From Symbiodinium natans (taxonomy: Eukaryota > Sar > Dinophyceae > Suessiales > Symbiodiniaceae): a stretch of 64,000 nt of DNA. Below are positions 7,400-57,865 of this stretch, piece by piece. The stretch spans positions 368,287 through 432,286 of the forward strand of contig CAJNDS010002083.1 in NCBI GenBank assembly GCA_905221605.1, read 5' to 3'. The notes under the pieces are model-generated. The model did no database searches and was not told the DNA's origin. It was given only the letters and a program-made list of their open reading frames with translations. The position numbers and the translations under genes are program-made. The stretch's first letter is position 1. Every line of letters begins with the position of its first letter.

Positions 7400-7449
7400 G
7401 CGAAGACGGTGCAGTGCCAGGAGCTCAGAGGATCGCTCAGAACTGTTCG

Positions 7450-17430: not shown

Positions 17431-17435
17431 GGGGA

Positions 17436-25375: not shown

Positions 25376-25415
25376 TGCTCGCCTAAGTCTGGCTGTTGGC
25401 CGGCTGGATCTACAT

Positions 25416-25416
25416 T

Positions 25417-25495
<79 letters not shown>
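25416..25495. repeat. (ACT)n microsatellite
   Basis: About 26 ACT triplets, just inside the right terminus of the 10.1-kb element. Confidence 0.97.
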
Positions 25496-25496
<1 letters not shown>

Positions 25497-25570
25497 TCAA
25501 GAAGTTTTGTAAATAGTAAACAAAGGGGCGTGCCAAATAGACCCTAAAGGTCCATGCCACATAAGGTTAT

Positions 25571-26464
25571 AGCGTTGGGTGGCCAGGGCCTGGGTTTTTG
25601 TTGAGGTTTGCGGCTTGGGGTATGGAGCCTCGGGTTTTTCGGGTCCCTGAGTTTCGGGCCCGCGCAGCTTCGCCGGGACCCCAAAAACAGGGACCAACGT
25701 TCAAAGAGTGGACCTCGTGTACTCGTGGTCTGTCTATGAGGGGCACGAGCTAAACTGCCTTGAAGACGGAGTTTCGCAGTCTTGGTCCAGCGCCATGTAA
25801 AAAATCTCAACCCAAAGTCCAAAGAGAAGCTTCGGTAAGCCAGTAAGCGTATGTTGTTAGCCCTTCATCTTCTTCTCCTCGTCCCATACTTCTGCACACA
25901 ATGCTCAAGCGTGTTGAGAGGCCGGAAAGCCGGAGATTGAGCCGCAAAAGTTCCCCGCAAGCGTGGTGCTCTCCCGAACCTTGGTGCGTCTGAGCCCCAG
26001 TTTGGGCTTAAGGGGGTTCACGGTTGACGGGGCTTGGGGCTCAGGGTTCAGGGTTTACGGCTGCAGGCCCTTTAAAGCTCTCAAGGCGGGGTGGTGCACC
26101 CCCATGTGCCCACCAAGCAGATCCGTGCTCCTGTTGCCCCAACCCGGAAACTTGAACCCTTAACCCTAATCAACCCTAAATAAACCCTAAAAAAGCCCTA
26201 AAAGCAAAGGGAGAACAAACCCTAGATAAACCCCAAAATCCTTGAAAACACCCTGAAGCTCCTCAAGCACCAAAAGCCCCCAAAGCCCAAACCCACCTGG
26301 ACCCGCCTCAAAAACCCTAAACAACTCAAGCCCCACAGCCCCAAAACCCTGAGAAGAAAACCCTAAGCTTCTCAAGCACCAAAAACCCCAAAACCCAGAG
26401 AAACAACAGCTCCTAGCCCCAAAAGCCCCAAAAGCCCCGTATTCACCTGGACCCGCCATCCGAG
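25571..26464. other. Spacer, C-strand-like in its right half
   Basis: No convincing exon. 26150-26450 is a long drifted CCCTAAA/AAGCCCC region leading into the exon at 26465. Confidence 0.5.
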
Positions 26465-28447
26465 GGCGAGAGCCCCCGAAGGGCAAGGGCGAGGAGGGTC
26501 GGGAGCCGCTGGACGACGACGCCCAGTGGTCAGATGGCCGGGTGCCAAACGGATTTAGGGTTTTGGGTTTAGGGTTTAGGGTTTAGGGTTCAGGGCTTCA
26601 AATTTAGGGCTTCGGGTTAGGGCTTAGGGCTGAGGGGACCCAACGCTTAAGCCCTGTGAAGCCTTAATCGGGGTTCAAGGGCCTTAGGTTTGGGGCTGCA
26701 GGGCTGTTGAGGGACGTGTTGTTGTAGAATCTCGGTTCCACAAGGATCTCTATCCACCCGAATTCAGACCCGGAAGCGCCTTTATGAATTCCAAAACCCT
26801 CATGGCCGAGGCGACGTGAGCGAGGAGGAAGACGACGAAGGCCAGTGCTCCACGCCCGGGTTGCTAGATTTTGGGACTCCCTAAGCCCACCCTCAGCTGC
26901 GGCTCCAGCTTAAAAAGGGGCCTAAAAGCCCCTGAGCCCACTCTTTCGCAGCCCACTGAACTTGAAGCAGCATACGAACATCCTCCCTCGCCGATACTTC
27001 TGCAGGTGAGCGCACCGTGTGGGAGAGAGCCCAGCGTGAGGGTGAGCCTCCCACTCAGGAGTTTTGGCTCTTCTCCGCTGTTTTTGGAGTCTTTTGGGCC
27101 CTGCAGCCCTGCACTTGGCTTCTAAACCGTAGTTCTTTGGCCTTTGCCGAGCCTTGGTTGGGATGGGGATGGCATCTCCCGTATAAAAGTCTAAAAGGCT
27201 CCGTATGATCACGAAAAGCGTGGGTAGATGAAGTGTTTACTTGCTTTAGCAAGGGAAACGGCCCAACCGGCGACTTTTGTGTTACCTGAAAATGTCGAGG
27301 AAAATGGATGGTCGATGATCGGTGGGTGGGTCGGTGCCTGGGTGGGTGGGTGGGTGGGTGGGTGTAGATCGTGGTCTGTGAGCACGCGTTCTCTAAAGCG
27401 CGCGTTTGGGAGAGATCCGCAGGACTTGGATCGCGGTCTCGGTGAGCGCACGTGTGGCCGTGTGTGCGGTAAGGCTGGTAAGGTGGAGTGTGGAGTGTGG
27501 TGCGCTGTGTGTGGTGGAATGTCAAAATGTGTGTGGCGGATGTGCAGTGGTGGTGGAGGTGGTGGTGTGCGGTGTGTCTGAGTCGAATACATCTTGGAAT
27601 CAATCCAGGCTAGCTTTCGCAAACCTCGGCTTTGTCCCTCAAGCCATCGGAACCCCAGAGGGCACGATGTTTCATAGGAAACCCATGAAGCTTCCGTGGC
27701 CTGAGGCAGTATCTCCCCACCAGGGTTTTGGAGGCGCCTGTCCAGTTCCACTGGTTTCTATTTGGAGTTGGGAGGTTTCGGGCGCAGGGAGGGCTCAGGT
27801 TTTGGAGATTTTGGGGTTGGATAGATGGAGGGTACCGAGTTCAGGACTTTCCCTGTTTTCTTCATCTCAGACTTCTGGTTGGTTCGACCGTGGCAGGGTC
27901 AGCTTCGTGGGTGTAAACGTCTTCCCGGCAACGATGTGTGCTTTTGTTACACACATGCACACCCACACCACTCCCTGACGTTTTCAAACACCAAGCAGGT
28001 GAGCGTTCACCTCCTGACCTAAGGCCCCCAAAACTCCGTAGGCCAGACCGTAAAGCTCACCCTTTCCAAACCACGGAATACGAACGCATCAATCTCAAGA
28101 CAAGGCCTTCGGATCTTTCTGCAAGAAGCCCTTTACCGTACCTTATTCAACCCCACATGTTGACTCAGGGCCTGTTGCCCGAAGCCTTGCTCAAGAGCTA
28201 TCGCTTCTACCAGCCCGGGTCTCTCAGTGTAGAGCTTGAGGGATTGCACGGAGGGCCGTGGAGTGTTAAGTTCTTTAAGAGTCAAGCTCTGTGGTCGCGT
28301 AGTTCTGTGCCATCCCCGGCAACAAGCCGGGAGTGTCAGCTACTGTCGGCAGTGCATGTGGTTCGCCAGACTGAGAAGGCAATAAGATGCAAAATCATAC
28401 TTCGCCCCACTACTCTGGAAGAGACTTCGGGCATCGGACCGTTCTAG
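26465..28447 (+). CDS. Unknown protein with acidic region, multi-exon gene
   Basis: Candidate exons: 26465-26520 (GAG|G acceptor, GC donor; REPPKGKGEEGREPLDDD); 26745-26840 (AAG|G, GC donor; LSTRIQTRKRLYEFQNPHG, then RGDVSEEEDDE); 26952-27005 (CGCAG acceptor, GTGAGC donor, 18 codons; PTELEAAYEHPPSPILLQ); about 27609-27662 (CAG|G, GC donor; LAFANLGFVPQAIGTPE). A long terminal open frame, about 28047-28447, reads EYERINLKTRPSDLS, PYLIQPHMLTQGLLPEALL, KSYRFYQPGSLSVELEGL, GPWSVKFFKSQALW and ends TAG. The first exon is bracketed by C-strand (left) and G-strand (right) telomere-like repeats. Not all phases agree, so exons are missing or two genes are mixed. No family recognised. Confidence 0.42.
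26551..26593 (+). repeat. Interstitial TTTAGGG tract at an intron start
   Basis: Five to six TTTAGGG-like units beginning about 30 bases after the GC donor at 26521. Confidence 0.9.
27313..27366. repeat. GGGT tract
   Basis: Tandem GGTGGGTGGGTGGGT run in a presumed intron; such runs can form G-quadruplexes. It is followed at 27480-27580 by GTG-rich sequence that opens long but non-coding-looking frames on both strands. Confidence 0.85.
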
Positions 28448-28493: not shown

Positions 28494-28567
28494 CCCTAAA
28501 CCCTAAACCCTAAACCCTAAACCCTAAACCCTGAACCCTGAACCCTAGACCCTAAACCCTGAACCCT
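28494..28567 (-). repeat. Interstitial CCCTAAA tract
   Basis: About five perfect CCCTAAA units followed by CCCTGAA and CCCTAGA variants. Confidence 0.95.
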
Positions 28568-29989
28568 GTATACCCGATACCCTAGACCCTGAAATCTCAT
28601 TAGGTGGCCAACCTGAGGGACCCCTGGCTCTGAGGACGAATGCGTGGCCCCATCGGGTGATCCATGGATACAAGGCATTCTCCCGCCCTTCTTGCAGGAA
28701 ACTCCGGGCTTCAGGGCTCTCAGTTTGTATAGTCTTCAGCCCTGAAGCCTACGCCCCATAAGTGTTTCTCCTCTCTCACGTTGCAGAGACTGCCATCTTG
28801 CGGGCGCAGTCGCAGAAGCAATATCGGTGCCAGGTTCCCGGCTGGAGGCTTGTGGACTAGTGTTGCAGTTGCCCATGATCCATGAGCCTAAATATCACTA
28901 CCACGGGAAATCCTCTTTACAACCCCGAGCATGGTTGTAGTGTAGCCTGCCCAAGATTCCTTCTGCATGCGGGGGCCCTTTTCCACTCAAGCGGCCCCGC
29001 TGCAGCGCTTTCAATTCTGTCGGGCCGCGCCCCTTGTCCAGCATGTGGCCGCCATTTGTGCTACTTCTCGTGGCCATGGGCCAAGCCTTGGGGCAAGCCA
29101 AAGAGACGATGCACGTCGTTGACCTAGCGCAGGCCGGTCAGGGAACAGCAGCCCGAAGACAGCAAGGGTGGTGATGGAAGGGGTGCAGGAGTCCTACTGG
29201 GCAATCTTGTCAACACCATGCGCCCTGAGGAGCCTAGTCGCTTAAAAAGCTCTTCACACCCCATGCCTAGAAACGACCTTGGGATTTCCCCCCCTTGCCT
29301 CCAGGTCGTTTGCCCCAAGCCACAGAGCAGCAATCCAAATGCGCCAACTCTTCCAGAGTCTGGGCTCTGTTGGATGTTGAGGGAGTCATGATCAGGGGTT
29401 TGCAGATCTTGGTGGGACAGGAAGGGGGTCCGGGGAGTCCGTTCAAGATTTTGAGACATGGCATTCGCCGCGAAAATTTCTCCTCGTCTTAGTGCCCTAA
29501 CCTACTACGGCATCCTTATCTTGTTGCTTCGGGGTCCCGAAGGGACGGAGTTCAGGCACGCACCCACCGGACGAACTGTCGGGGCAGCATTTTCCCAAGG
29601 ACTACACCTTAGGGATTCCACAGACGAGCTCAATGGAGATGGACTCCCCGTACATTGTCAGCTTCATGCGCGCAAGCAAGCAGGCGTCGCCCTGTTCCCG
29701 AAGCCCTTCTTTTCTGGGCTTGGGTTTTCGGCCCGAAGCCTCGAGAGTTAAGGGTTTTTCGGGTTTTTCTTGGGGGTTTCTGGGCTTCGCATTGTTGCTT
29801 GCGCATGCCACTCTGCTTATGCCCATCGCGCTGCCAGTGCCGTGCTGCACACTGAAGCCCTTCCTTATTCGTTTGCATGCGTCTGCTTTTCATTCGTAGC
29901 AGCCAGCATCCACCTCTGTTTACCGGCACGAGGGCGAGCACTAAGAGCGGAGAACGGTTGCCACTTCTGCGTTGTAGAGCCTCTGGAAG
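28568..29989 (+). other. Spacer with candidate 5' exons
   Basis: Two possible exons. 28788-about 28960 contains CHLAGAVAEAISVPGSRLEA and LVLQLPMIHEPKYHYHG. An ATG at 29458 opens MAFAAKISPRLSALTYYGIL followed by ILLLRG, which looks like a signal peptide or anchor and could be the first exon of the cysteine-module gene at 29990. Neither is well supported. The minus-strand frames here look like shadows. Confidence 0.3.
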
Positions 29990-32965
29990 GCCATGTCAAT
30001 CTCCTTCAAGATCTTGGACTACAACGGCGAGACTGTAGTGACCGACACGACCGTGCAGCTTGATGATTTGACTTCCGGCACCGTGCCTACCTCGTGCGCG
30101 TGCACATCGCCGAGCTTACCTTCGGAAGTGGTGGCTGTGTACGGTTCCAGCTACGGAACATCGTGCCAGGCTTGGGACAATGCCAAATGCGATGAGTGGT
30201 GGGGCTGCCTGTCTGATAATTCCTAGATGTCCTGCCACTGCAGATCATGCCGGAGTCTGAGAGCTGTGCCAACAATAAACCCTAAACCCTAAAAACCCTC
30301 AACCCTAAGCCAGTGAGTGAGATGATGACCGAGGTGACATCTCAGTCGGCTCCTGGTGTTGTCGGCCCTGGTGCTATGCATCACAGGACTGCCCGGATTC
30401 ATACCGAAGTTCTGCGATCCCGGGTCAGTACTTCAGCTATGCTGCATGCAATTCTGTGAGCGCGGTGTCGCCTTGCACATGGACAACTGTGGCTGCACAA
30501 AATGACCCGTGCCAATGCAAGAACTTTGCGAGCGTGTTCCTCGGAATTGTTAAGTTAGACTAGGGCCTTGATTCGCAGTTTTTCAGGGTGGGTCTGCCAT
30601 GCCCTGGAAGAAAACCAAGGTTCAGCACGGCTATGAATGCCACTTTTACAAGTGAGTACGGAGCCACTTGTGGAACATGGGACATGCAGAACTGCGCCGT
30701 CAACTACCGGCCAGACCAGGTAGACACCTGGTGCTGCAAAAGCTGGTGCTATGTGGACGCCTGGCTGAATCGAACTTTAAAAATCTAGCAAGCTTGTAGA
30801 TTTCGACTTGCAGAGGTACTATAGTCACTATAGAAGATATCCAAAACCCGCCAAGGACAAGGCCTGTTCCACCGCGAAGCAGTCTCTGAACCCCGGCATG
30901 GAGGGCATCCTATTCTGGTCGGAGAACATTTGCCCAGATGACCCGGTTTTGGTTGCACAGTGCCCTTACAAGCCGACACCAAACGTCTCTGCAAGCGACA
31001 GCTCATGCAATTGCACGAATGAGAAGATGCCCACCTACGACCTCCTGAAGGCAGGCTTGGACTCGACCTATGAGGACTACGGCCGGCAGTGCGCTCCTCA
31101 CGATGCGACCGTCTGTGACATCACTCACCCAAGTGCATCGCACGGGATGTGGTGCTGCATGTCCTGGTGCTGGGTTGCTGAAAGTTGCCCCACAGCGCGG
31201 GCATCAACCCTTTGGCCAGGAAAGTTCTTCAGCACCACTGGATGTGAGATGGATGCGGATGTTGTGTCTGGCTGCAAGTACGACTTGACATCCTGCGCGT
31301 GCCTTGGGACCAGTTGGCTCTTCGTTTGACACTCGGGGTGGGGGGGTGGGGAGATGGCTCCTGCCATCAAGGGGAGTTCTTTGGTTTCTCTTTGGTCCGG
31401 GCCTTGTAAAACTTAGGCCATGAACCGATAAAGTGTTACTACGAAGCCTTCGACTCTTGAAACGATGCTTGGCCCTACTCTAAGAACAGACCCCAACCCC
31501 TACACCCATTTCAGCCAGGTGCCGCGGCACCCTGCCCAGTGGGACGCTTCCCAGTGGATTTGCCAGCAACTATGGCTCGTCATGCTCCTGGTTTGCAGCT
31601 GTAGATCATCAGGCTTTTTGAAGACTTTCCAGGCGGAATAAAGGTGTACCCTGATCAAAATATGGTTGCCGGGCGCCTGGCTACGAAGTCATGCTGATTT
31701 CGGAAGCCGTTTGCAAGCTTTTGCCCTGAACCTTCGAGCCTGGCAACCCCAACTACCCTCCAAACCATGCACTCCTAAGCCCTAAGCCCTAATCTTCTAA
31801 ACGCTGCACTCCCAACCCAGAACCCCCTGACCCCCTGAGCCTCCCCAGACCCTAGCAGCCCTGAAGCCCTGGACCGCCTCCTTCAGCCTTGCCTCGAGGC
31901 TCGCCGTGGGATGCCACCGGCTGCAAGGCGACCTGGAGTCCACCCGGCTGAAGTAGTCGGTTTTGCTCTCTCTCTCTCTCTCTCTCTCTTTCGTTTTAAT
32001 TTTCTCTCTCTCTCTCTCTCTTTTCTTTTTTTTTTTTTTTTTCTCTCTCTCTCTCTCTCTCTTTTTGTTTGAGTTGATCGCGTTGTTCTTATGATTGCGA
32101 GTCTGATGGTTGTTAGCATCTGCATGAGAGGCATGTGTTTGTGTGGGCGATGTGTGTGCACGTGGGGGTGAGCGAGGTAAGGACTCACACATGTCAATTT
32201 GGTCACTGTTGGTCCGTCCCGCCAATAATTCTTTGAGGCTTAGACAATCAGTCCCAGAATTCTGGGGTTCGGGCTGTAGGGTCACGGGGTCGGGACTAGC
32301 GAGCAGCAGTGGTTTCTTTCGCTTGCTTGAGCTGGGATTCTCGATCTCGGTGTTATTACTCCCATGGGATACTCGGTCGCTGGTTAATGTTTGGCATATG
32401 AAAGTTCTGGGACCTAAGCTCTAAACTCAGGTTCGGATGCAGATTCGCAGTGGAATACCCAAGCTAATCACGAGTGGTGCTGCGATTCCTGGTGCTACGT
32501 CGACAAGGCTCTAGCATACCTGAGAAAGTTCCTAGAAGAAGTCGCTCTCGGTTTAGGCTTCGGGTTGGAACTTCGGGCCCTTCTGATTGAACTTCTTGCG
32601 CTCTGCGGATTTCAACGGGCCCTTTGTGAGGAGCTCAGGCGGCGATGGACTGCTGGAATCCCTTGTCCCCTCAAATGCCCCATGAGAGACAGGTGACTAC
32701 CTCGATGTTGAGCCATGGGGCTTAGGGGTCCATTGCTTGACCAGCAGTTGACCCGGGTTGTCTCGCTCCCCATGAAAGAGAACAGTGAGTACTTCACAAG
32801 CATTGTACGATGTATATATGCCTTCAATGAGTAATACACAATTGACAATACTTGGGCCATTGGGGTTTATCCCTTTCATCCCTCTGGAAGGCGTGCCCAA
32901 TCGCTAAAGAGTCGTGGCTTGGCACCGGCTACTACTTCAGCTACGAGACGTGCCGCTTGTGCTGA
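29990..32965 (+). CDS. Cysteine-rich modular protein (CCxSWCYV modules)
   Basis: At least four copies of a module: YG.SYGTSC.AWD.....WCC.SWCYVD.ACP.A..S....G..FSYE.C..., then CxC. Exons: 29990-30203 (VYGSSYGTSCQAWDNAKCD); 30334-about 30525 (SWCCRPWCYASQDC, FSYAACNSV); about 30587-30755 (EYGATCGTWDMQNC, TWCCKSWCYVD); 30856-31298 (KACSTAKQS, ILFWSENICPDD, DYGRQCAPHDATVC, GMWCCMSWCWVAESC); 31519-about 31590 (ASNYGSSCSW); about 32430-32507 (HEWCCDSWCYVDK); 32891-about 32957 (ACPIAKESWLGTGYYFSYETC without its neighbours). Introns: 30204-30333 (GC-AG), 30756-30855 (GA-AG), 31299-31518 (GT-AG) and 32508-32890 (GC-AG), all followed by G. Many paired Cys and Trp imply a secreted or cell-surface protein; a signal peptide is expected upstream. 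Function unknown. Confidence 0.78.
31964..32065. repeat. (CT)n / T-rich tract in an intron
   Basis: Three CT dinucleotide runs separated by T runs; encoded RERERE frames on the other strand are artefacts. Confidence 0.95.
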
Positions 32966-33400
32966 ATAGTTTTACGAGTCTTCTGAGGTCGCCCAGATGA
33001 ACCGCATGGAAGGGGCATTGATTTCATGATAGATCTCAGAGTCGGAGGTTGCAGGTAGAGTGTTTTGGCAAGCAGCACCTCATCTGCCACCTCTCCGAGG
33101 CGACGATCTTTCCACGACTTACGTCGAGTCTTCCGACTCTTGCGTTGCAAACCGGAGGCGCGCGGTGAGACGACTTGGTGAACTGGTGACGCAGGCACTC
33201 GGAGAGGCAGGGGGCGGGCGATGCCGTTAAATACGCGGTCACTGTCAGCGCTGCATCTATAAAGAACCTGTGATGTACACAGAGACGAAGTAGCATGTTA
33301 ATATTTTAGTGTACATACACACGTAGTGCATGTATGTACATGCAGCATATACATCAGTCTGGAAGATGAAGTAGATAACTAGCGGGAGCTCTATTTGGAG

Positions 33401-36400
33401 GACGTGGAAACGGAAGGCGAGTCCGCGCAGCAGCGTCTACTCTCAGCCCGTCGACGTGGTGGATATAGCTCCTCTACCTCGACCACCCGTCGACGACGCT
33501 CTCCCCCTGCACCAGCTACGACTCGGAGAAGGCGAACTCCTTCGGCACCGTCAGCATACAGCACTCGTCGCAGAGCTACTCCGACCACGCCCCGGCGCCG
33601 AGCAGTTCGCCGGAGAGCACCTCCTCCGCCACCTCCGCCAGTAACAACTTCCCGGCGCCGAACCCTTGGCATCGACGGTCAGTCTCATACCATGACTCCA
33701 CGGCGCAGGCGAGCTCCAACTCCCACTCCTTCTCCCACCATCAGTCCCCGGCGACGGGCTACGCCTACACCGACTCCGACGCCTTCGCCAACTCCCACTC
33801 CCACACCCACGCCAACCCCGACTCCTTCGCCATCGCCTTCTACCACAACGAGGCGGAGGCGCAGTGTACCATATGGTTACACTAACAAAAACCAAGTGGC
33901 GAGCAACCACGGTGGTACGATGCCCCACCATACTTCCTACGGATACTCCGGCTCGAATGCTGTGTCAGCCAACCAGGAGACTAACGTGGCCATGTATGCT
34001 GCAGGAGCAGCGGCTGCTGCTGCAGTGGTGGGTGCTGGGGCGGCATATGCCTACAACAGCATGTATGGGGATGCATACGGCGATCACCGTCGTCGCCGAG
34101 CAAATTCTTTCGAACAGCCGGATCTTTGCACTGTGACAGCGCCTGGGGAGCGAAATGGTGACTTCATGGAGTGCCAGAAGTGCTACGACCACTACAGTGC
34201 AGACCTCAGTTCTCTTCCGGAAGGGTCTTACGGATGGGAGATTGTGGCAGTACCTGAGCTTGAGTTTGGCCTTAAGCTGGCCCGAATGCAGCGCCATTCC
34301 GATAGTATTCATGTTTTACGTAAGGCATCTCCAACTGCGTCTCTGCAAAATCTTGCAGCTTGGCTTATTGTGGTTCCGCCTGAGATTTTCCTTTCGGTTC
34401 AGAGTGAGCCATCCGAGGCAGCGGTAACCCAAAACCCTAAACCCTAAACCCTAAACTCTAAACCCTAAACCCTAAACCAAAGAGCCTCAACCAAGGCATC
34501 GACAGGTTAAGCGTGAACTAGGCCATGTCGGTTCTCAAGGCCCAAATCCTACAGCTGGACCCTTAACATTGTGATGTTCCCCCTTATACTAACAGTCCTG
34601 AATGGGGATTATAACAGGGGGCGTACGATAATCCCTATGAAGGACTGTTAGTATAAGGGGGAACATCCCAGCCTTAACCCCAAACCCTAAACCCTCACGA
34701 CCTTGGTCTCCAAAGCAGTGAGGTAGCACCGCAACGGGGTGCAGTTACAAGCCACCACAGAGCTTGAGCCGCGATGACCTGTCAGCCACAGGCTCTTCAG
34801 GGTTTAAGGTTCAGGTTTTGGCGTTTAAACAGTTTAGGGAGACAGGGCTCAGGGTTCGAAGTGTAGGGGGTTCGGCAGGAGAGTGTCGTCAGGCTTGTGA
34901 TGCTCATCAGCTAATCGAGGAGGTCCCACGCCAGAGCGATGGTATTTGAATGGAAGTATGCGGCAGTTCCATGTACATTGCCACGTTGTGATACGCTGCA
35001 CGAGAACTCGTGCAACTAGCATACACACTAGAAGCCTATTCCATACTTGCGTTTCGACTGTGCTGTTTCATCTTGCTGTACTGTGCGCTAGATCGATATT
35101 GTTGCGCTGCACGCTGCTGTGTAAGTCTGCAGGGTGCTAGGGTATGCACATGTATGCACTGTACATACTTGCTCTCTTATATAACCATCTCCCTGGCTAT
35201 GCTTCAGAGCATGACATCCCCAAAATGTGTAACTCGTGTGAGCACTATTCCCCATGGCTCAGGCTTTTGCTACATGCGGCTGTCTAGGTAACCTGAAGCA
35301 TGAGCCTTGCAGAGTTTCCTTGCAGGGTTCATCCCCAGCGGCTACACCTTTCCGCTCCGCGTCGTGTTCACCAACATCTCTGGCGCTGGAATTGTGACCG
35401 ATCCTCTGTCAGGCCTGTGCACCTTCGTGCCTTTTAAGTCGCACTGCTTCGTGTTGCAACTTCAGACGTTGAGCCCTACCTGCAAACGTTCAGGCGGCCT
35501 GTGCCCTCCGACGACTCCAGAGCAAGCAGATTTTGTTGAGACATTCAACAAAACCATGCGTCCCAGCAGCATCTTACTGAAATAGCTACAGACACTAGCT
35601 TCCACTGTTGCTTAATTATTCTATTGCAGGTTTCAGGATCTAGGGCTCACGGCCCAAGCTGAAGGCCTCGCTGCTTGTTGCCGTTGAGAACCTTTTGCCG
35701 TTCACATTGCTTACAAAGAGCACCACCACGGGGAACTCCGACCACCGACGTGCAGAGCAAGACGAAATTTGCATACGTGCTGAGGCCCTTCCACCACAAA
35801 CCCCCCAACACCCCGAAACCGCCGCCAAGACACTGGTTCAGACTTTCGTCAAACGCCCTCAGGCGTGTAAACTTGAAGCTCACACTTTCTAAGTGGGTGA
35901 GAACCCTCCCAATCCCCGAACGCTCGGGCTCCAGCAACTGTTCCTCATAGGATCCCTCACCCCTCACTGCACACCAGCCGTGCGGAGGATTTTATATCCC
36001 ACAAGAAGTCGCTTAAACCCTAAACCCTAAACCCTAAACCCTAAACCCTAAACCCCGCCCGAAAAGGAGTGAAGGGTTGTTAAAAAAAACCCTAAACCCT
36101 AAATCCTAAACCCTAAACCCTAAACCCTTAAACCCCTAAACCCTAAACCCTAAAACCCTCCCCACCTCGAGACTCCCCTCAAACGCCTTGAGGTCGTTCA
36201 AGCCGGAGCTGTTCCTCGTCCTGACCAAGCAGACTGCACTCCGTGTCCCGGAGCCATGTGCCTTGCTCTTATTTTAGTAAGGGATTGAGGGATTTAGGGA
36301 TTTAGGGATTTGGGGATTTAGGGATTCAGGGATTCAGGGATTTAGGGATTTACAGACTTTTCCGCAGGGTTCAGGATGTGAGATTTGAGAGTCCTTGACC

Positions 36401-36769
36401 CTGAGAGACCCCTTGGAATCCTAGGTGACACAGACACATCGACCACCTGCCGAAGCAGCTCAATCTGCTATGCCAACAACTCGGTCTGCGTGGACGGAGT
36501 TTGCCTTTGTGACACAGGCTGGAACCTCTGATGGCCAAAATAAAAGCAGAGAGCGCACATGGTCCAGAAACGCGCCAATTTTGCCAACCCTACCTCTGAG
36601 ATCCTCTGAGCACCCCTGGGTTTCCCAGCCCTTATCGAAAAGCCGTGTTGCAGGCTACTGCTGGGACGGGTACACCTGTCAAACGCAGGGCCTGACAAGT
36701 GGAACACAGGGCTCGGTGTTCAGTCTGCTGACCTTGCTGGCCATCCTGCCTCCTGGCCAAATGGAATAG
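33401..36769 (+). CDS. Arg/Thr/Pro-rich membrane-anchored protein with Cys and EGF-like segments
   Basis: Exon 33401-34198 follows GGAG|G and ends at a GC donor. It reads RRLLSARRR, RRRRSPP-type and TPTPTPSP repeats (about 160 residues), a spacer with SYGYSG, then a hydrophobic Ala/Gly helix AMYAAGAAAAAAVVGAGAAY (about 33985-34060), a basic stretch DHRRRR, and a Cys motif FMECQKCYDHYS. Exon 35326-35412 encodes FIPSGYTFPLRVVFTNISG, AGIVTDPLSG; after a GC-AG intron (35413-35493), GLCPPTTPEQADFVETFNKT. Exon 36425-36516 (CRSSSICYANNSVCVDGVC) joins 36654-36769 across a GC-AG intron to complete an EGF-like CLCDTGYCWDGYTCQ, then a hydrophobic tail VFSLLTLLAILPPG and TAG, possibly a lipid-anchor signal. 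It resembles repeat-bearing surface proteins of dinoflagellates. The first exon is missing, and one gene rather than two is inferred. Confidence 0.6.
34433..34487 (-). repeat. Interstitial CCCTAAA tract in intron
   Basis: About seven CCCTAAA units in the large intron after the exon ending at 34198. Confidence 0.95.
34568..34671. mobile_element. MITE family A, copy 3, 26-bp perfect TIRs
   Basis: The best-preserved copy. Left TIR 34573-34598 (GATGTTCCCCCTTATACTAA...) is perfectly complementary over 26 bases to 34642-34667 (...TTAGTATAAGGGGGAACATC). CCTTAAC is repeated directly outside at 34561-34567 and 34672-34678. It sits within an intron of the surface-protein gene, so it is tolerated by splicing. 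Confidence 0.85.
36014..36160 (-). repeat. Interstitial CCCTAAA tracts
   Basis: Two CCCTAAA runs separated by about 30 bases. A G-strand GGGATTTA octamer array follows at 36284-36352, making a loose inverted pair. Confidence 0.93.
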
Positions 36770-41324: not shown

Positions 41325-44300
41325 ATGGACCCTTCGGTGAAAGAGCTCTTGCAGCGCCCCGAGAATCGCGTGTGTGCCTGGGCCTGCTGGAAGGATTGGT
41401 GGGCTTGGAGTTGATCTGGGCTGGACCTAAATTGTTAGGACCCTTGCTCGTACTCCAAGCTATAAGGAAGACAAGAATGAGACCCCAAACGGGATGAGGG
41501 GATTGGGACTTGCAGAGGCCTCGTCCTCTTGTGGCAGTGCCTAGGACCTAGGAGAATGTGGGCATTGCTTTCCAGGCCGAAGAGGGCAAAGCCTCCCAGA
41601 CTAGCCCTTGGTTCCCCACTCCATGTAATGTAACGCGCTGTAGGGCCTCTTTTGCGCTACCACAGGTAGCCCTCCTATCTAAGGTGGCAAATCGCCTTTG
41701 GTATCGATATTTTCTTTATGACATGATGAAAGACTTCTCTTGCAAGGGCATGCAGAGACGAACACGGAGTCTAAACCACCCCCATTTATGATTCAGGGCT
41801 TGAGAGCCTCAGGAACAACTCCTTCGTCGTGTAGAGACTTTGAACCCCACATATGAAGTGTTTAGGGTCAGGGCTTACCTAGAGACTAGTCTGATGTAGT
41901 TCTTTTCCAGGTTCCTTGTGCTGAGTGGTTCCCTATAAAGTCCTACCGTGCACCACCCCAACGGAAACTACACTGGAGCCCTTCAACAGCGTGTAGGCGC
42001 TCCATGTTTCAAGCAGAGAAACCAGGTGCCGACTGTGGTGAGCGCGCGCCGCGCTGGTGCAGCATCAACCTTGGGGTGATCCTCTGTGCCGAGTGCGCCT
42101 TGGATTCGGGCTTTAGGGCTTCGGGCCTTAGGGTTGAGGACCGGGCCGTTTAGGGTTTAGGGTTCAGGGTCTAGGGTCTAGGGTTTAGGGTTTGGGTTTA
42201 GGGTTTAGGGTTTAGGGTTTAGGGTTTAGGGTTTAGGGTTTAGGGTTTAGGGCTTCGAGCCCGGGAGTTTGCAGGACTTGGGCCTGAGGCATTCTGGCGG
42301 AGTGGGGGTTTTCCAATCTGTCTTGAACCCCGTAGGGTGCGGGAGGATGGCCGGGGCACTGCCCGCGCGACCTAAAGAGCTCAACATTAAAAGGCCCGGA
42401 CTCGAAGAGTTGTGGGTTGAGGGGTTGATATAAGGGGTATATAATGGGGTCCCCTTTTGAGGGCCCCTACTAAGGGACCCTGTGCTGGAAATACCCTATA
42501 AGATAGGGGTGCTTAAGACAAGGGCTGGTACTCCCCGGAGCAGGCGCTGGCATACACCGCAAGCTGGGAACCCACATCTCCTTCGTGCAGAGCTTGAGCC
42601 TCGACTCGCTGAAAGACGAGTGGGCTTCGTGGGCTGCAGCCAGGGGTTAGGCTTAGGGTTTAGGGATCAGGACTTAGGGTTTAGGGTTTAGGGTTTAGGG
42701 TTTAGGGTTTAGGGTTTAGGGGACAGAGATTGCTTCGGAGTTTCCTTTCTTGAGCTACTGGGGGCCTTGCACAGACTTCGAGGGCCACCAACATGCCAGG
42801 GCTGTATGGGCATTTGGGTAATTGGGAGGTCTTTGGCCCAAGGCATACTAAAACTTCAAATCCCGGGCCCTAGATCACAAAGCCCCTAACCCAGACTCTT
42901 AGGCCCTCACTACGAAAGGACAGGAAGGGAGCAATCGAGAATCTTGTGCTGCAGTGTTTTCCTGATTCCCTGCCCCCCCCCCCCCCCCTCCCCCTTCAAA
43001 CAAAAGACCAGTTGCCATTTAGCTGCGAAAGGACGCCCCTGTCAGAGTCCTCCTCCCTAGGCCCTACACTCTAAACCCTGAACCCACCCAACCCAAACCC
43101 CAAACCCCAAACCCGAAACCCTAAACCCGAAACCCGAAACCCGAATTCCCTAAACGCTAAACCCTAAACCCCAAACCCTAAACCCCAAACCCCAAACCCC
43201 AAACCCCAAACCTGAAGGTCCAACAGCTCCTCTCACGGGGGAACGCCGCTGGGGCCGAGCGATTCGAAGCGGCTTTGCCCCAGTCCTGGACGAAACCAGA
43301 GGCAGATGTTTGGGGTTTAGGGTTTGGGGTTTGGGGTTTAGGGTTTCGGGTTTAGGGTTTAGGGTTTGGGGTTTAGGGCTTAGCGTTTGGGGTTTGGGGT
43401 TTGGGGTTTAGGGTGCGTGTTCTTTTCTCTTCCCCAAAGGGGGTAAGAATGGGCTTATGGGCTTTGGGGTTGAGAAGTGTCGAGGGCTCGTTACAGGGTT
43501 CTTAAGGTTACATACCTTGAACGCCCCCCTCCCTCCCGTAAGAACCCTCAAAGCGAGGATGCGGATTCGAGGTTTCTTCTTCAAGGATTCGGTCCATACC
43601 CTAAACCCTAAACCCTAAGCCCTAAGCCCTAAGCCCTAAGCCCTGAGCCCTGAGCCCTGAACCCTGAACCCTAAACCCTAAACCCTAAACCCACCCCCAA
43701 ACCTTCAGCCTCAGGCTCTCAGCACCGGAGGCGACCGCATCGATGCCAGAAGCGGGTACCATCTTGCTTCTCGACCTGCATCCCTAGAAGCCAACAATCC
43801 CGAAGCAGCACCGGGAGAAGCCCGCAAAGAGGAACCCGAAAACTTAGTGGCTGTCAGGGCTTCGGATTGAGGATGGCTCGTCTAGGCTGGCATACTTGGT
43901 TTCGGGGTTTTAGGGGGAATGGAGGATGAGGGTTCTTCAGTTTTTGAGCTCAGAATGCTAGAATCAAGATCAGGTTTTCAGGACTCAGGGTGCAGGTGTT
44001 GTGCTAAGCTCGTGGAACATGTGTGGCTGCTTGCTTGATCGAGCTGCTGGTCGTTTGTGCGTGCCTGGCTCGGATCTCTGGTGCCATTCTTACGGCATGG
44101 CATGCGAGCTGCACAGGCTCAGATGGGGTTGCCGGGTTTGAGGTTGCTGGTTTTGGTCCTTAAGAGGCCAGCGCATCGGCCGGCAAACCCCTAAAATCCC
44201 AAACCCTCACGTACCACGTGCGGTACATCTCCTCATATGCCGCGGTCACACTTTCTCGTAATGCCACCATCGTGAGCCTCCTGTGAACTCAACAAAAATG

Positions 44301-44391
44301 GCTCTGAATTGGTGCCAGCTGCTAGCCGCAAACCCCCGATTTCCAGGAACAATATATCAGGGCGAAGTACGAGCACCAGCTCTTTGCGAAA
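41325..44391 (+). CDS. ArfGAP-domain protein, SMAP/AGD5 type
   Basis: Five exons, with phases that join exactly, give a whole ArfGAP domain: 41325-41373 (MDPSVKELLQRPENRV, ATG kept because the fit to the family starts here), 42026-42094, 42544-42623, 43218-43301 and 44347-44391. The zinc finger is CADC, 16 residues, CAEC, ending CAECAGIHRKLGTHISFVQS; the catalytic Arg of GIHRKLG is present. The rest follows the family: SLSLDSLKDEW, LLSRGNAAGAERFEAALP, SWTKPE, EQYIRAKYEHQLFAK. ArfGAPs stimulate GTP hydrolysis by Arf GTPases on Golgi and endosomal membranes. Introns are 652, 449, 594 and 1045 bases; the first has a GT donor, the next three GC. Only the domain is recovered; downstream exons for the C-terminal region were not found. 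Confidence 0.92.
42147..43693. repeat. Telomere-like arms inside ArfGAP introns
   Basis: G-strand TTTAGGG runs at 42147-42251 (intron 2) and 42655-42721 (5' part of intron 3); C-strand CCCTAAA/CCCCAAA at 43066-43213 (3' end of intron 3, reaching within a few bases of the acceptor); G-strand TTTGGGG/TTTAGGG at 43312-43412 (5' end of intron 4); C-strand at 43598-43693. The 84-base exon 43218-43301 is thus tightly enclosed by complementary repeats. Confidence 0.93.
42974..42990. repeat. C homopolymer
   Basis: A run of about 17 C near CCCCCTT; similar C runs lie at about 15328, 20369, 48447, 52040, 63138 and 63545. Confidence 0.9.
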
Positions 44392-44680
44392 GCAGGGGGC
44401 CAGGTGGGAAACTTTGGTTTGGGAAAAATCGATGGGGAGAGAGGGTTTCTGGGCCATCAGAGTTTGGGACTTTAAGGTTTTACAGGGTTTGGGATTTCGA
44501 GTTTCAGGGTTTGCAAATCCGCGGGAACCCGAGAAACTTCAAGCCCTAAGCTCTGAGAGGTTTACCTTAGAAACTCCTTGAAGTGAAATGCGTCAGCCTT
44601 CCGAAGTCGCACAGTGTCAGCCTTTGGGGGGCCTGCAAAGGCTCTGTCGAAGGTGCAGAGGCAGCTTGCAAAGCGGTGTT

Positions 44681-44828
44681 CTACTTGGAGGTTCATGGTA
44701 CTTATGAACCTAATTATAACTGTACTTATAACTGTACTTATAACCATAGTAGGGCACTGAAGGGGCTTATCGGTACAGTTGTAAGTGCAGTTATAATTGG
44801 TTAACGAGTATCATGAACCTCCAAGTAG
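44681..44828. mobile_element. MITE family C, 148 bp, long TIRs
   Basis: Starts CTACTTGGAGGTTCATG and ends with its perfect complement CATGAACCTCCAAGTAG; the arms continue as AATTATAACTG..CTTA.AACTG with few mismatches, so nearly the whole element folds on itself. The flanks GTGTT (left) and GTGTC (right) may be a short target duplication. No coding capacity. It lies downstream of the last recognised ArfGAP exon. Confidence 0.85.
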
Positions 44829-46828
44829 GTGTCTGAGTCGCCCTTCTCCCACCGCTTCCGCGTGCTGCTGCGCCGCCGAGGCTACCGGGGGTGTGGGGCT
44901 CACAGCTCGTGGGACGAAAATGGGCTTCCAGACCCGCTAGAGTATCTGCCTGACTATTGCTCACTGCAGAACGCACCTTCCTGCCGGAGCAAGCAATCAT
45001 CTAAGTTGAGCCCACTTTGCCAAAGACTTGGCCCAAACCGCCTTCCGTCCCAGGCGAAACCCGGTAAGTCCCGTAAGCCCTCCAAGCGCTACAAGCCACC
45101 CCGGATCACAAGTCTGCCCGTGAAGCCTGTACCCTGAACCGGAACCACCAATCCTAATCCCTGAGCCTGAAAGCCTAAGCTTCCCTAGGCCCGAAATTGC
45201 CCTAAGGCCTTTAGGGCAGTTTCATGGTCCCTTAGCATGGGCCCTTAAAAGGATACCCCTTATGTATTCCTTGTATACCCTTATCAAGGGGCCAAACCCT
45301 AACCCTAAACCCTAAACCCCAAACTACCCTAAGATACAGCCAAAGCCCCAAAGCAAGCAGAGACCTTGGACAGGCGCGGAGCCCTTCGGCCTGGCACCCT
45401 CTAAGCCGGGGCTCCGGCACGGCAGCCTTCGACTTCGGGCAGGTGTGAGGGTTTAGGGCTTAGGGTTTAGGGTTGAGGGAGTTTAGGGTTGAGGGAGTTT
45501 AGGGTTGAGGGTTTGGGGTTTAGGGTTTAGGGTTGGGGGAGTTTAGGGTGGTTTAGTTGAGGGTCTAGGGTGTTTTTCGGCTTTAGGGTGGCGGGTTTGG
45601 GGCTTCGGTGCCAGGATCTTAGTAGGGATTCAAGGTCCCGGTTTTGCATGCTCACTTCGTGGGGGTTCTCGGTTCAGCGTACAGGGGGTGTATAGTTTGA
45701 GCTCAGTATAGGGCTCGGGGGCTTAAAGGTTTGCAGGAATCAGGGGGTGGGATTCAGGCGTGCAGGTTCTGTTGGGGACTGGGTTAGGGCTTCGAACATG
45801 CAGAATAACGCTCGGCCCTAGGCGCACAGAGCTTCTGAGCTTTGGGAATTCATTGGGAACGGAGCCATCAGTTGGGCATGTAGCCATTTAAAGCTTCGGG
45901 TCTGGGATTTATGGCGTAGGGTGTAGGGTATCGCTCAGGCGTTGGGGTTTAGGACATGATTAGGGCTTCAACCTCGCCAGATCCTGCACCCGGGTCACCA
46001 GCCGAGCAATGGAACGTTGCCGGGGCCTGAGAAGAAGATAAGCCATTGGGCTTAGGATTTGTAGTGCTTTCCCCAGCAAAGCTACCCTCCACATCTAGGG
46101 TGAGCATGGGAGACTCGAACGGCAAGCTCTGAGTTGCGTAGCCGTAGCACATGACACCCCCAACACCAAGAAGGAAGCAGTCTCTGCATTGCATTTTAAA
46201 GAGGTGTGCAGTGTCAAAGTTTGTTTGGGGATCGCAGGCTTCAGACATCTCAGAATTCTTTCTTGGTGTCGAGACTTTCCTCAGGCACAGAGCAACCCTG
46301 CGCTTCGCCTCCGCACTCTGGCAGCTACTTTAGCATTTGGGCATTTTAGGGTTGAAGCCTGACCCACCCTAAGTCTTCAACCCTTAAGCCCGAACCCCGA
46401 ACCTCCACTACACACCTACACCGCCTACACCCTAAATATCCCTACGCCCACAACCATTCAACCTGGGGACCTGAACCCTAAACCCTTCGACCCCAGTCGC
46501 TCGGAAATACCCAGGCCAGGGAGATAGCCTGGTGCGCGTGAACGGCGTGGGTTCCGGGCCCGAGGGCGGCTCGGAGGCCCTAAAGCAGCTGCAGCGAGAG
46601 AGCCAGGCATGGGCTTGGGGTTCATGGTGTCGACGTCGGGTTTGGGCGTCTTGGGGGCTCAGGGTTTTTTTTTGACCTTTCAGCGATGGTCAGATCCCAA
46701 TTCAGGATTGAGGCTCTGATTCCTCTGATGTTCCCAAGCTGGCCACTGAGCCTAAACCCTGACGAGCCCCAAACCAAGACCAAAATGGGGCTGATAACCT
46801 GATAACCGAGAATCGCTGGCGCCTGCAG
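44829..46828 (+). other. Spacer with weak exon candidates
   Basis: A possible exon at about 45335-45441 (AG acceptor, GTGTGA donor; QRPWTGAEPFGLAPSKPGL) sits between a C-strand run (45293-45330) and G-strand repeats (45449-45545). Around 46150-46335 three frames on two strands are open and protein-like (for example ASDISEFFLGVETFLRHR after CGCAG|G on +), so no call is made. The rest is TTTAGGG- and CCCTAAA-derived. Confidence 0.35.
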
Positions 46829-47600: not shown

Positions 47601-47784
47601 TAAAAGAATCGGTCTGAGGATAGGCTCTGTGTTGTTGACATTGATCTTTGCTGTATCTGGTGGGGACAAGTTTGGGCCTTTGGATCACTAAGGTACGTCA
47701 TCTAGCTTGCTTGAGAAGCACCGCGGACGCGAGAAGGAGCTCTTCTTGCAGATCTGCCGGGCCCCCAAAACCTCTTCAAACCTA

Positions 47785-47853
47785 AACCGAACCCTAAACC
47801 CTAAACCCTGAACCCTAAACCTTAAACCCTAAACCCTAAACCTTGGATCCCAA
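47785..47853 (-). repeat. Interstitial CCCTAAA tract
   Basis: About eight CCCTAAA-type units upstream of the exon at 47966; the G-strand partner is at 48633-48680, beyond the exons. Confidence 0.93.
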
Positions 47854-47965
47854 ATGGCTGCCTCTGAGCCTCCTCAGATATTATGAGGTTCAGTCGATTC
47901 AGTTCATATTTTGCTAAAGTTAGGGTTCGCTGTAGCGTTCAAGGTGTGTTATGTTTGTGGCCCAG

Positions 47966-48463: not shown

Positions 48464-48632
48464 AAAAAAAAAAAAAACCTTATTAGGGGCCTATATTACT
48501 ATAATAACCCCAAAGAAGAACCCTACTAGCGGCCAATATTAGGTTTGAGAGGCTTACCTTGGCAGCCAAGGCAGCGACCGGAATGCTGCGATGATCTCAA
48601 AGGCTGGGACACTTCTCTTCCTCCGGGGGTTT

Positions 48633-48681
48633 CGGGGATAGGGTTTAGGGTTTAGGGTTTAGGGTTTAGGGTTTAGGGCTC
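48633..48681 (+). repeat. Interstitial TTTAGGG tract
   Basis: About six perfect TTTAGGG units. Confidence 0.95.
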
Positions 48682-49345: not shown

Positions 49346-49450
49346 ATGCCCAAAGTTGACCACTGCGTCAAGGAGTTGCAGCTGCTCGAAGCCCTTTGTC
49401 GCCACCTCGCACAGGTGGCTTCCCACTGTGTATCCCAGCCCTGTCCCTGA
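49346..49450 (+). CDS. Small open frame (34 aa), possible first exon
   Basis: ATG to TGA: MPKVDHCVKELQLLEALCRH then LAQVASHCVSQPCP. Helical, with Cys spaced along the helix. CGCACAG|GTGGCT inside it could be a donor, making this a first exon; it starts six bases after a MITE end. Confidence 0.27.
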   Translation: MPKVDHCVKELQLLEALCRHLAQVASHCVSQPCP

Positions 49451-49559
49451 CTAAAGGGTTTAGGGTTTAGGGGCAACTTCAGGGGGTCGGGGGTGGGGCG
49501 GCGGGAGGTGTTCAGGGTTCAGGCTGGGTTTACTAAACCCGGACCACACACGCAAACCC

Positions 49560-49618
49560 CAAGCCCTAAGCCCTAAACCCTAAACCCCAAACCCCAAACC
49601 CTAAGCCCTAAACCCTGC
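49560..49618 (-). repeat. Interstitial CCCTAAA/CCCCAAA tract
   Basis: About eight units mixing CCCTAAG, CCCTAAA and CCCCAAA. Confidence 0.92.
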
Positions 49619-50201
49619 AGACCCAATGACCCTAAAACAGAACAAGCCCGAAGGCCCCGAAACCTGCCGCGGAAGCCATTTTTCTGCTTTATGAAGCCGC
49701 AGGGGCCAAGCATGGTGGCCGAAGGCAGCAGCGAAGACGGTCCGCTACCAAGGGCCTTTTTCGGGGGGTTCAGGGTCTTCTCAGGACTCGAGCTATTTGT
49801 GTTTGAAGATTCTTGAGTGTATCTGACGTGGCGGTCATGAGACTGCTTCTCCCTTGAAGTGCCATCTTGACAACTTAGAGACTTGGAGCTTCATCTTCCC
49901 CCCCTTTTGCTCCCCCTTGTCTCCCTAAGAACCCACAGCTCTCTCCACTCTTGTCCAGTGCCTCTTTGTGGGCGAGGAGTGGCTTGGACCCCCTATGCTT
50001 GGCCGCAGCTCGCGGCGCGGCAGCACTTTTTGCTTTTTCAGCATTCCGAGTGTTTGCAGCTTGTGTCTGGAGATGAGTAGTTCTTAACTTAGGAGTTGCA
50101 TCTGCGTATCCCAATAAGCAGCACTGCCGAAGATTGCGAGGGATGGAGGGCACAGGGCAGTGCAGAACTGAGACTTCAGGCTTAGTATCGAATTCTCGCA
50201 G

Positions 50202-55782: not shown

Positions 55783-57865
55783 CCCGCTTCGAGGCGCGGC
55801 ACAGCGCTAAGTCTCGTGTTTTGGCTTCCCCCAAGGTGTGGGGGTTCTGGCAGTTGAGCTCTCATCAACAATGCGGGGCGAAGCATCTTTAGCGGGCTTC
55901 TTTCCGGGCAAGGGAGTCGGTGGCCCCTTCGTCCAGGACCTTTCTCACATTCTGGCCTGGACTTGCCGGGGCCTCAGGCCTTGTCAGGCCCTGTGGAGAT
56001 TGCGGTTTGGGTCTCTGTGCTGTCATGACAGGTTCGAGTCGTTTCTCTTCACCTCAAGGGTACCTCGCTGTGACTCAGCCCATCCGACCGACGGTCCCAA
56101 CAGCACTGCCCTACCGACCCTCCTGTCGACCTCCTTTGCTTTGATAGAGAATGGGCCGCCACTTCCTCGACACTCTTGGTTAGCCTCGTGTTATGAATGC
56201 GCGCCTTCCCTGAACCCTTACCTGGCTTTACCTGCAGCTCAAAATGCATCAATCTGCCAGTTAAACCGAAGCCCCAAAGCCCTACACCCCAACTCCAGGG
56301 GTCCACTACGCTAGCACCCGAAGATCCTAAGCTAAACGTTGAGATCTTGGGCGGTTCTCGGCTCGGAAAGGGCCCCGGCCCCCCTCCCACCCCCTCCGCC
56401 ATCGGGGCGGCGGGGGAACTCCGGCGGCTCACGTCTGTCGGGGCCTCTGAGTCGCTTTTCGATTTCATTCTCTGAAGTTGTACGGCTTTCGGGGCAGATG
56501 GCGTAGTAGTGTTTCGGCATTTGGGGGGGTCGAGAGGATCTCTGCACATAGGCTTGGGGCTGGAGTTTAGGTTCAGCCTGGGCCTTGTCACAACAGGCGC
56601 TTCCAACAGACAGTCCAAGGAAGTCTTGGCCAAAGTTCTCGCACCTCTTTGGGAGAAGCATGTTGTGTTGATTTGGAAGACTGGTGTCTGGTGCTGACAA
56701 GGAAGGAACTCAGAAATCTGCGAAGCGCTGCATTTCCTCGATCTCCCCAAAACAGGTGCCAGAAAACTAACAGACCAAGTCGCTGCCTCCCGCGGGGTTT
56801 AGTGGGGGAGGGGGGGGGTAATGGCTGTGTGAACAAAGACCTGCCTGAGGCCAACGTAGCATCGCCTCCGCAACGGCGAAATGGCATTTGACTCGGCAAT
56901 CAGGGCTCAGGTTCTGGAGGTTCTGGATATCCAAGCTTTGCGCCATGAGTGAGACCTGATTCGGCCAGCTCTGTAGCTCATGGTAGTTCCATAGGTGCGG
57001 GTTACAAGTCCTCTTGCTAGGCAGGCCCACAAAGCCTAAACCTTAACACGCAAGCAAACGTTTCGAGGGCTTTGGAATTGTGGTTTTTGACGGCTTTGAG
57101 GGCGTTTCGGGTGTCAGTGATTTAGCCAGGGTATGGGAGAATCGCCTTCAGAAATCCTAAACCCTAAGCCCTAAACCCCAAACCCTAAACCCTAAACCAT
57201 CTCAAGGCGCGGGTCCCTTGTGTACGCCTTCTGGCCTTGCTTCTATGGACTGCAATGGGGAGCCCCATTTCGAAGGCAGGTTGGCGAGTTGTGGATGACA
57301 AAGTTGCGGTTTGGGGTTGAGGGTTTCAGTAGGGTTCTAGGAACATTCTCCAGACAGGGCTTCAGCTTCGAGCGTTCAGGCGTTCAGGGACTCCGGCGAC
57401 CTGTTTTGGGCGGGGCTTTAGGCTTGGGAGCTTTTTCAAAAGTTTGGGTTCTGGAGACGTCGCCCGCAAGCTGACGAGATATGAGAGGTCATCTCCCTTC
57501 TCAGCGACATGGAGGCGGGGTGGGCTAAGAGATTGTAGCTCCGAGTCGTCTCAAAGGAGACAGGGAGACCTGAGGATTTTACAGACTCTCTCGGCATGTT
57601 CTGGAGCAAAGTTGTGAACTTTACTCGTAGCATGCGGCCGAACTTGTAGTACGGCGGTGCTGCGCAGGAGAAGGTTAGGAGAGAGGGCATTGCCACCGAC
57701 GAGGCAATGAAGGCCGTCGTTTCCTTGGTGTACCAAGTCATGAGTTGCTTGTTCAGCAGACCCCGAATCGCGGTGCGCACATCTTCGGAAATCTCTCTCA
57801 ACTGCTAACGGCAAGTCCTGATCCCTAACCGTCCTAATCTCGGCGGCCACAAACTTGCCTGCCAG
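55783..57865 (+). other. Region with weak exon candidates
   Basis: Possible + exons: about 56612-56697 (after AACAG; QSKEVLAKVLAPLWEKHVV, LIWKTGVW), about 57591-57650 (MFWSKVVNFTRSMRPN), and about 57668-57805 (after GCGCAG|G; EKVRREGIATDEAMKAVVSL, VYQVMSCLFSRPRI). A minus frame of similar length overlaps the last. A CCCTAAA tract lies at 57155-57203. No gene model is offered. Confidence 0.33.

Follow-up and report, generated by a model that had tools for sequence, protein, structure and literature searches.

Strand-polarised telomere-type repeats around exons of the dinoflagellate Symbiodinium natans

Do telomere-type repeats inside dinoflagellate introns follow the orientation of the gene that carries them, and do they fold the two ends of an intron together? 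The question is raised by an ArfGAP gene in a 64,000-nucleotide (nt) stretch of the Symbiodinium natans genome (contig CAJNDS010002083.1, positions 368,287 to 432,286; hereafter the window). A sequence-only reading had described the introns of this gene as opening with G-strand words such as TTTAGGG and closing with C-strand words such as CCCTAAA, making them potential long hairpins that would bring weak GC/GA splice sites together. We find that the polarity is real: telomere-type repeats are arranged around exons in a gene-oriented manner, with a genome-wide footprint. Long hairpins, as far as structure prediction indicates, are a minority outcome.

Exons in the window were mapped by homology to proteins for three plus-strand genes. 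The ArfGAP gene (gene A, 41.3-50.4 kb) was mapped from P0003 ('AGD5 [Symbiodinium natans]'), which matches the window exon by exon with almost every piece at 100% (tblastn); 15 of its 19 junctions have a scripted GT/GC/GA-AG solution, and for the rest, as for the first intron, hand placement or match edges were used. Gene B, encoding a cysteine-rich protein (29.6-36.7 kb), was mapped from P0042 and P0046, and gene C (5.7-28.7 kb) from P0047, with exon boundaries in both taken as alignment edges. The 46 inter-exon gaps of the window and one intron of an ammonium transporter gene on a second contig make up the set of 47 introns analysed below.

The window is rich in interstitial telomeric sequence, that is, internal arrays of the species' telomere repeat: TTTAGGG occurs 199 times on the two strands versus 12.6 (s.d. 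4.1) in dinucleotide shuffles, mostly inside tandem arrays with a 7-base period. Among the 47 introns, arrays at the 5' end lie on the G strand in 11 of 13 cases and on the C strand in two, and arrays at the 3' end lie on the C strand in 11 of 12 and on the G strand in one. Jointly, 22 of 25 end arrays conform (p = 1.6e-4), which bears out the proposed polarity; it also extends beyond the window. Three introns break the pattern: 47756-47965 carries a C array on its 5' side, 26008-26459 has C words on both sides, and in 11699-12586 the 3' side holds G words.

Word counts by distance give the same picture. Within 150 nt of the exons of the three genes, upstream flanks hold 10 G and 95 C words and downstream flanks 104 G and 19 C words. 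Across the 46 gaps, with short gaps excluded from the farther bins, the first 100 nt from the donor contain 90 G and 13 C words and the last 150 nt before the acceptor 90 C and 9 G words, these being the distances within which telomere words peak. At the level of whole arrays, 19 of those within 100 nt of an exon fit the rule and 2 do not (p = 2.2e-4). When telomere words are masked, 32 of 45 introns remain G-skewed at the 5' side and C-skewed at the 3' side (Wilcoxon p = 7.5e-4), which is what one would expect of a general polarity.

The ArfGAP gene shows the arrangement most fully, its 20 introns holding 81 G words in their 5' halves versus 8 in their 3' halves, and 16 versus 54 C words. Its relevant features are as follows, with arrays taken from the word-array scan.

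41325-41379, plus strand: likely first exon (MDPSVKELLQRPENRVC), matching residues 1-18 of P0005 and missing from the annotated P0003
42028-42094, plus strand: exon (tblastn with P0003 and P0002)
42095-42543, plus strand: GC-AG intron with a G arm only (scripted splice solution)
42112-42252, plus strand: TTTAGGG array, G strand, 18 nt past the exon
42624-43217, plus strand: GC-AG intron with both arms, set by hand from phase and homology; predicted fold z -2.9
42652-42721, plus strand: TTTAGGG array, 5' arm of 42624-43217
43076-43210, plus strand: CCCTAAA/CCCCAAA array, 3' arm of the same intron, 8 nt before the exon
43218-43301, plus strand: exon with a C array upstream and a G array downstream (P0003, 100%)
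43302-43714, plus strand: GC-AG intron predicted to form a near-perfect telomere-repeat hairpin (scripted splice solution; z -16)
43309-43413, plus strand: TTTGGGG/TTTAGGG array, 5' arm, 8 nt past the exon
43599-43701, plus strand: CCCTAAA/CCCTAAG/CCCTGAA array, 3' arm, 14 nt before the next exon
43715-43765, plus strand: exon LSTGGDRIDARSGYHL (P0003; relatives P0001 and P0002), overlooked in the sequence-only reading
43766-44346, plus strand: GC-AG intron without substantial arms (scripted splice solution)
44680-44828, in the ArfGAP gene: element resembling a miniature inverted-repeat transposable element (MITE), terminal repeat CTACTTGGAGGTTCATG, flanking GTGT
45303-45352, plus strand: C array, 22 nt before exon 45374-45442
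45374-45442, plus strand: exon between arrays (P0003, 100%)
45452-45602, plus strand: G array, 10 nt past that exon
47763-47840, plus strand: C array on the 5' side of intron 47756-47965, contrary to the rule
48630-48678, plus strand: G array, 28 nt past exon 48570-48602
49459-49484, plus strand: G array, 5' arm of intron 49415-49705
49564-49662, plus strand: C array, 3' arm of intron 49415-49705

The scan places the arrays at the positions given in the sequence-only reading. Both arms that had been assigned to the third intron are present in 42624-43217, and the second intron indeed carries its 5' arm alone. What had been read as a single fourth intron with both arms is two introns split by exon 43715-43765; the arms belong to the first of these, 43302-43714, and with this exon, revealed by P0003, the arm pattern fits better. 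GCGC occurs at 42095 and, read by eye, again at the start of the exon following that intron; such short boundary repeats are common because acceptors are AG|G. They also vary between introns: in 43302-43714 the donor GCAG and the next exon GCTC have only GC in common. Within 41325-42027, the annotated N-terminus of P0003, MFQAEKPG, is translated from intron sequence, and the true first exon is likely MDPSVKELLQRPENRVC at 41325-41379, judging from relatives and the DNA.

The polarity follows the gene and not the DNA strand. An S. natans ammonium transporter (P0054, locus L026), of which two exons were mapped, lies on the minus strand of contig C1. The intron between them has TTTAGGG words at its start and C words at its end, 12 of them within its last 330 nt; a C array also closes the upstream flank of the first mapped exon. 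At this locus, after exon 1527-1601, the TTTAGGG repeats of the 5' arm give way to an array of a 9-base unit, TTTATAGGG, which seems to have been homogenised in place.

Pairs of neighbouring arrays extend the observation to the whole genome. In the window, eight C-then-G neighbours are separated by a gap of 60-160 nt (arrays of at least two words, read by hand) and two G-then-C neighbours are. Seven of the eight gaps contain a homology-supported exon (starting at 7328, 26460, 34725, 36182, 43218, 45374 and 49706), and the eighth, 57197-57310, is without homology. With arrays of at least three words the counts are four and one in the window and two and one in a set of ion-channel loci, too few to judge.

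Genome-wide counts were made on the S. natans assembly (759,417,921 bases, 2,543 contigs; published as 0.76 Gbp, with a mean exon of 106 bp and a mean intron of 486 bp; PMC10666404), requiring two tandem heptamers per side over 31 gap lengths per range; matches include overlapping registers and so are not independent. At gaps of 5-35 nt, C-then-G pairs number 2,720 versus 7,197 G-then-C (ratio 0.38), whereas at exon-sized gaps of 75-105 nt they number 63,099 versus 30,350 (ratio 2.08). Such a turn with distance is as expected if exon-sized segments sit between outward-facing arrays, given the mean exon length. Counting separate clusters by hand among the matches listed for contig C1 up to position 1,001,717 gives 61 C-then-G versus 30 G-then-C at the exon-sized gap (p = 0.0015). 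Also by hand, 22 distinct array sandwiches, putative exons at most as a group, were counted on C1; when 21 putative pieces from 20 C1 sandwiches were pooled for a protein search, one matched its protein, the ammonium transporter. This search scored only the 7,995 candidates that shared the most words with the pieces, so that misses say little.

Are the introns, then, long hairpins? Intron 43302-43714 has a predicted folding energy of -254.7 kcal/mol, where shuffles average -157.7 (z -16; 0 of 100 shuffles as good), and its predicted stem runs from the first base to 5 nt before the last with 106 end-to-end pairs. The predicted fold of 42624-43217 is moderate (z -2.9), and that of 49415-49705 is not significant (z -1.2). 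The second-strongest fold is without end-to-end pairs, its z being attributed to an internal MITE-like element. When 42 introns were folded against shuffled controls, nine had z below -2 and one above 2, with a median of -0.61; of 47 introns, 5 carry both arms, 12 a single arm and 30 no arm. The hairpin claim has strong support in 43302-43714 and moderate support in 42624-43217, and is partly supported as a general reading.

Other signs of end-to-end pairing are mixed. Inverted-repeat scores between intron ends have a median of 7 for both cognate and mismatched partners (control partners being available for part of the introns), and long end repeats (score at least 17, within 150 nt of each end) occur in 3 of 40 introns. 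Wobble-compatible substitutions, which leave the RNA paired through G.U, are not enriched (p = 0.51). In 43302-43714 the G arm is rich in TTTGGGG and the C arm has CCCTAAG and CCCTGAA runs; here and in 42624-43217 the heptamer variants follow one another differently in the two arms (by eye and by best ungapped match), so the arms are not mirrored terminal inverted repeats, which argues for separate growth in place. Nor do the armed introns form a special class with weak sites on the ground of their donors: in S. natans, 58% of donors are GC, 23.6% GT and 18.4% GA, and 97.1% of acceptors are AGG (PMC10666404), so that GC and GA donors are standard.

The bodies of nine armed introns were searched in about 264 kb (83 loci) and the window, with exact self-matches filtered out; no full-length copies appeared, and short or weak pieces were found for two. 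The MITE-like element 44680-44828, serving as positive control, has copies in many of these loci, with relatives in L002, L006, L007, L009, L018, L031, L036-L038 (overlapping loci) and L069. The element resembles the type of introner (a mobile element inserted as a new intron) published for S. microadriaticum (PMC9860276), and the armed introns, as far as tested, do not. There, terminal inverted repeats and splice motifs come with the insertion (PMC9860276). The right end of the MITE-like element likewise provides the acceptor (AAGTAG|GTGT) of ArfGAP intron 44404-44828.

Interstitial telomeric sequences, which the arrays resemble in being internal telomere-repeat arrays, are mainly described as scars of break repair or fusion; to our knowledge they are not known to be positioned according to the edges of exons and their strand. 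The ends of euglenid nonconventional introns are joined by base pairing and are neither telomere-type nor repeat arrays. TTTAGGG is the dinoflagellate telomere motif (PMC11453091). In Amoebophrya A120, scaffold ends carry both TTTAGGG and TTTGGGG as telomere motifs (PMC7789003), and in mammals interstitial telomere repeats are described as being inserted during break repair (PMC7215372). Inverted repeats able to form hairpins are reported from the intron ends of Amoebophrya (PMC7789003), and inverted-repeat introns from Prorocentrum cordatum, in a comparison that includes S. natans (PMC10666404). The S. natans introns with two arms resemble these introners in having putative inverted repeats near both ends, which may pair in RNA, and in their non-GT donors (PMC10666404, PMC7789003). 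The repeats described there, however, are 8-20 nt long, sought within 30 bases of the ends and accompanied by 3-5 nt direct repeats, whereas each S. natans arm is an array of telomere-type heptamers, at most about 150 nt long, on a preferred strand and often one-ended, and the bodies have no full copies in the sample searched. The S. microadriaticum introners, reported to have terminal inverted repeats along with 4-bp duplications, are multi-copy families (PMC9860276); the armed introns have no common bodies in the DNA searched.

The main text of the S. natans genome paper contains no 'introner', 'telomer' or 'TTTAGGG' (PMC8045281). Telomere-type polarised intron arms appear in no paper among the open-literature matches listed, as judged by titles and the beginnings of abstracts, subscription papers and preprints lying largely outside this set. 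Inverted-repeat introns as such are already known in dinoflagellates.

How might the arrangement have arisen? We tentatively favour separate growth of an array at each intron end, with its strand filtered by splicing and with pairing as a bonus. In the genes mapped here, arrays of telomere-type heptamers (TTTAGGG, TTTGGGG and drifted variants) sit close to splice sites, with the G-rich strand preferred over the first ~100 nt past the donor and the C-rich strand over the final ~150 nt ahead of the acceptor; on this reading they have spread through S. natans introns. Each end would acquire and extend its array on its own by local slippage, as the non-mirrored variants suggest, and splicing may filter orientation if the reverse orientation interferes with it. 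G-runs behind the donor may resemble intronic enhancers, and CTAAAC-containing C-rich repeats before the acceptor a branch-site and pyrimidine-tract signal. In introns with both arms (about one in ten here), the RNA is predicted also to fold end to end, which may hold the splice sites together. The commonness of single arms (12 of 47 introns) counts for this reading.

Several observations weigh against it. Within 600 nt of exons, 6 of 27 arrays break the rule (21 fit; p = 0.006), and the transporter flank after the second mapped exon, where no next exon was mapped, has 31 C and 2 G words in 435 nt. At 37 ion-channel loci there is no downstream polarity (12 G, 15 C) and weak upstream polarity (11 G, 25 C); these are a poor independent exon set because they are mostly long-exon genes. 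The G-then-C excess expected near 300 nt is absent genome-wide (134,222 G-then-C versus 150,291 C-then-G at 285-315 nt, C-then-G/G-then-C ratio 1.12), and separate clusters counted by hand among the matches listed for C1 up to 608,294 number about 39 C-then-G versus 27 G-then-C. The count is confounded because outer words of long arrays flanking one exon are also about 300 nt apart; even so, it counts against a simple intron-scale prediction. The masked skew could reflect decayed arms, and the branch-site and enhancer roles are analogies. Two results lean towards pairing: more introns have both arms than independence predicts, although the excess is not significant (odds ratio 4.2, p = 0.097), and pairing is better between cognate than between permuted ends (p = 4e-4, 40 introns), though the two telomere hairpins top that list.

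A rival, which we hold to be a real if doubtful possibility, is that pairing itself is selected, the hairpin joining donor and acceptor and single-arm introns having decayed. The predicted donor-to-acceptor fold of 43302-43714, the weaker fold of 42624-43217 and the better pairing of cognate ends agree with selected pairing, as do the intron-end repeats of Amoebophrya (PMC7789003). Against it stand the scarcity of introns with both arms (5 of 47) and their non-significant co-occurrence, the lack of wobble-compatible enrichment, the median z of the 42 folded introns, the equal cognate and mismatched inverted-repeat medians, and the arm variants, which are not mirrored. These last variants also tell against armed introns being introners, mobile elements with telomere-like terminal inverted repeats. 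That origin is unlikely given long end repeats in just 3 of 40 introns and nine bodies without full copies in the loci and window searched, where the MITE-like element finds its own, even though introners are reported for S. microadriaticum (PMC9860276) and inverted-repeat introns for P. cordatum (PMC10666404), and the end repeat of 43302-43714 begins 18 nt past the donor and 22 nt short of the acceptor in an inverted-repeat scan.

Telomerase or telomere-copying repair would yield the observed polarity without selection, since G strand added to the 3' ends of breaks and rejoined gives exon-TTTAGGG...CCCTAAA-exon with arms that need not mirror each other; the two Amoebophrya A120 telomere motifs (PMC7789003) and the mammalian break-repair insertions (PMC7215372) are in keeping with it. 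Arrays made in this way should abut, however, and the three both-armed ArfGAP introns have 80, 186 and 355 nt between theirs; the arms also begin within tens of nt of exons and are not randomly placed in introns, and we regard this origin as improbable. Least credible of all is that interstitial telomere repeats are scattered genome-wide without relation to introns and the polarity is a sampling accident. Arrays are indeed abundant everywhere, in both orientations at all distances, and the ion-channel loci show little polarity; such an accident would have to produce the 22 conforming end arrays of 25 (p = 1.6e-4), a genome-wide orientation preference that turns with distance (0.38 at 5-35 nt, 2.08 at 75-105 nt) and an intron that fits on the minus strand of a second contig.

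For intron biology, polarised telomere-type repeats at intron ends, visible in raw genome-wide counts, offer a link from repeat expansion to splice-site recognition and to intron gain that can be tested directly. It bears on intron recognition and origin in dinoflagellates, which have about 15 introns per gene (14.7 in S. natans, with 35,270 genes; PMC10666404) and mostly non-canonical donors. Telomere-repeat matches in such assemblies, moreover, do not mark chromosome ends. In the boldest version, a long shot, tens of thousands of S. natans exons would be bracketed by outward-facing telomere arrays, their introns having originated, or been remade, when broken ends of exons received G strand in the manner of telomerase. 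Each exon would then be capped like a tiny chromosome, telomere maintenance would be a source of spliceosomal introns, and splicing would exploit the resulting complementary arms.

Genes B and C carry the same arrangement, in arrays located by homology and the word-array scan:

7258-7314, plus strand: C array, 14 nt before gene C exon 7328-7426 (P0047, 88%)
7453-7501, plus strand: G array, 27 nt past the same exon
26315-26392, plus strand: C array before gene C exon about 26460-26544 (start approximate)
26554-26629, plus strand: G array, 10 nt past the same exon
28494-28593, plus strand: C array, 40 nt before gene C exon 28633-28674
30280-30309, plus strand: C array before a gene B exon (start about 30321-30333)
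36090-36182, plus strand: C array abutting gene B exon 36182-36259 (P0042/P0046)
36285-36347, plus strand: G array, 26 nt past the same exon

Intron 30204-30333, cited by the sequence-only reading for C-strand words at its 3' end, is supported by homology to P0042; its C array lies 12-24 nt upstream of the exon, according to the start chosen for the match. For the putative coiled-coil gene from which the same reading drew further examples, Pfam gives no match at 61-64 kb, where weak G-then-C word pairs are present. Pfam scans of 25.6-64 kb in all six frames and of 1-15 kb in four gave convincing matches only for ArfGAP and ankyrin, and codon bias is too weak to find exons of 30 amino acids. 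Long gene C gaps, such as 7427-11647 and 15240-25917, probably hide more exons. The protein of gene B (29636-36748) bears repeats and has relatives in S. pilosum (P0042) as well as in transcriptomes (P0044, P0045); the search made for it gave no S. natans entry.

Two further repeat features were observed. A large 309-base tandem repeat at 15510-17433 is directly followed by a 108-base TTTAGGG array (17438-17545). At 36280-36352 in gene B, an 8-base unit, AGGGATTT, replaces the 7-base unit, still on the G strand at the 5' end of an intron.

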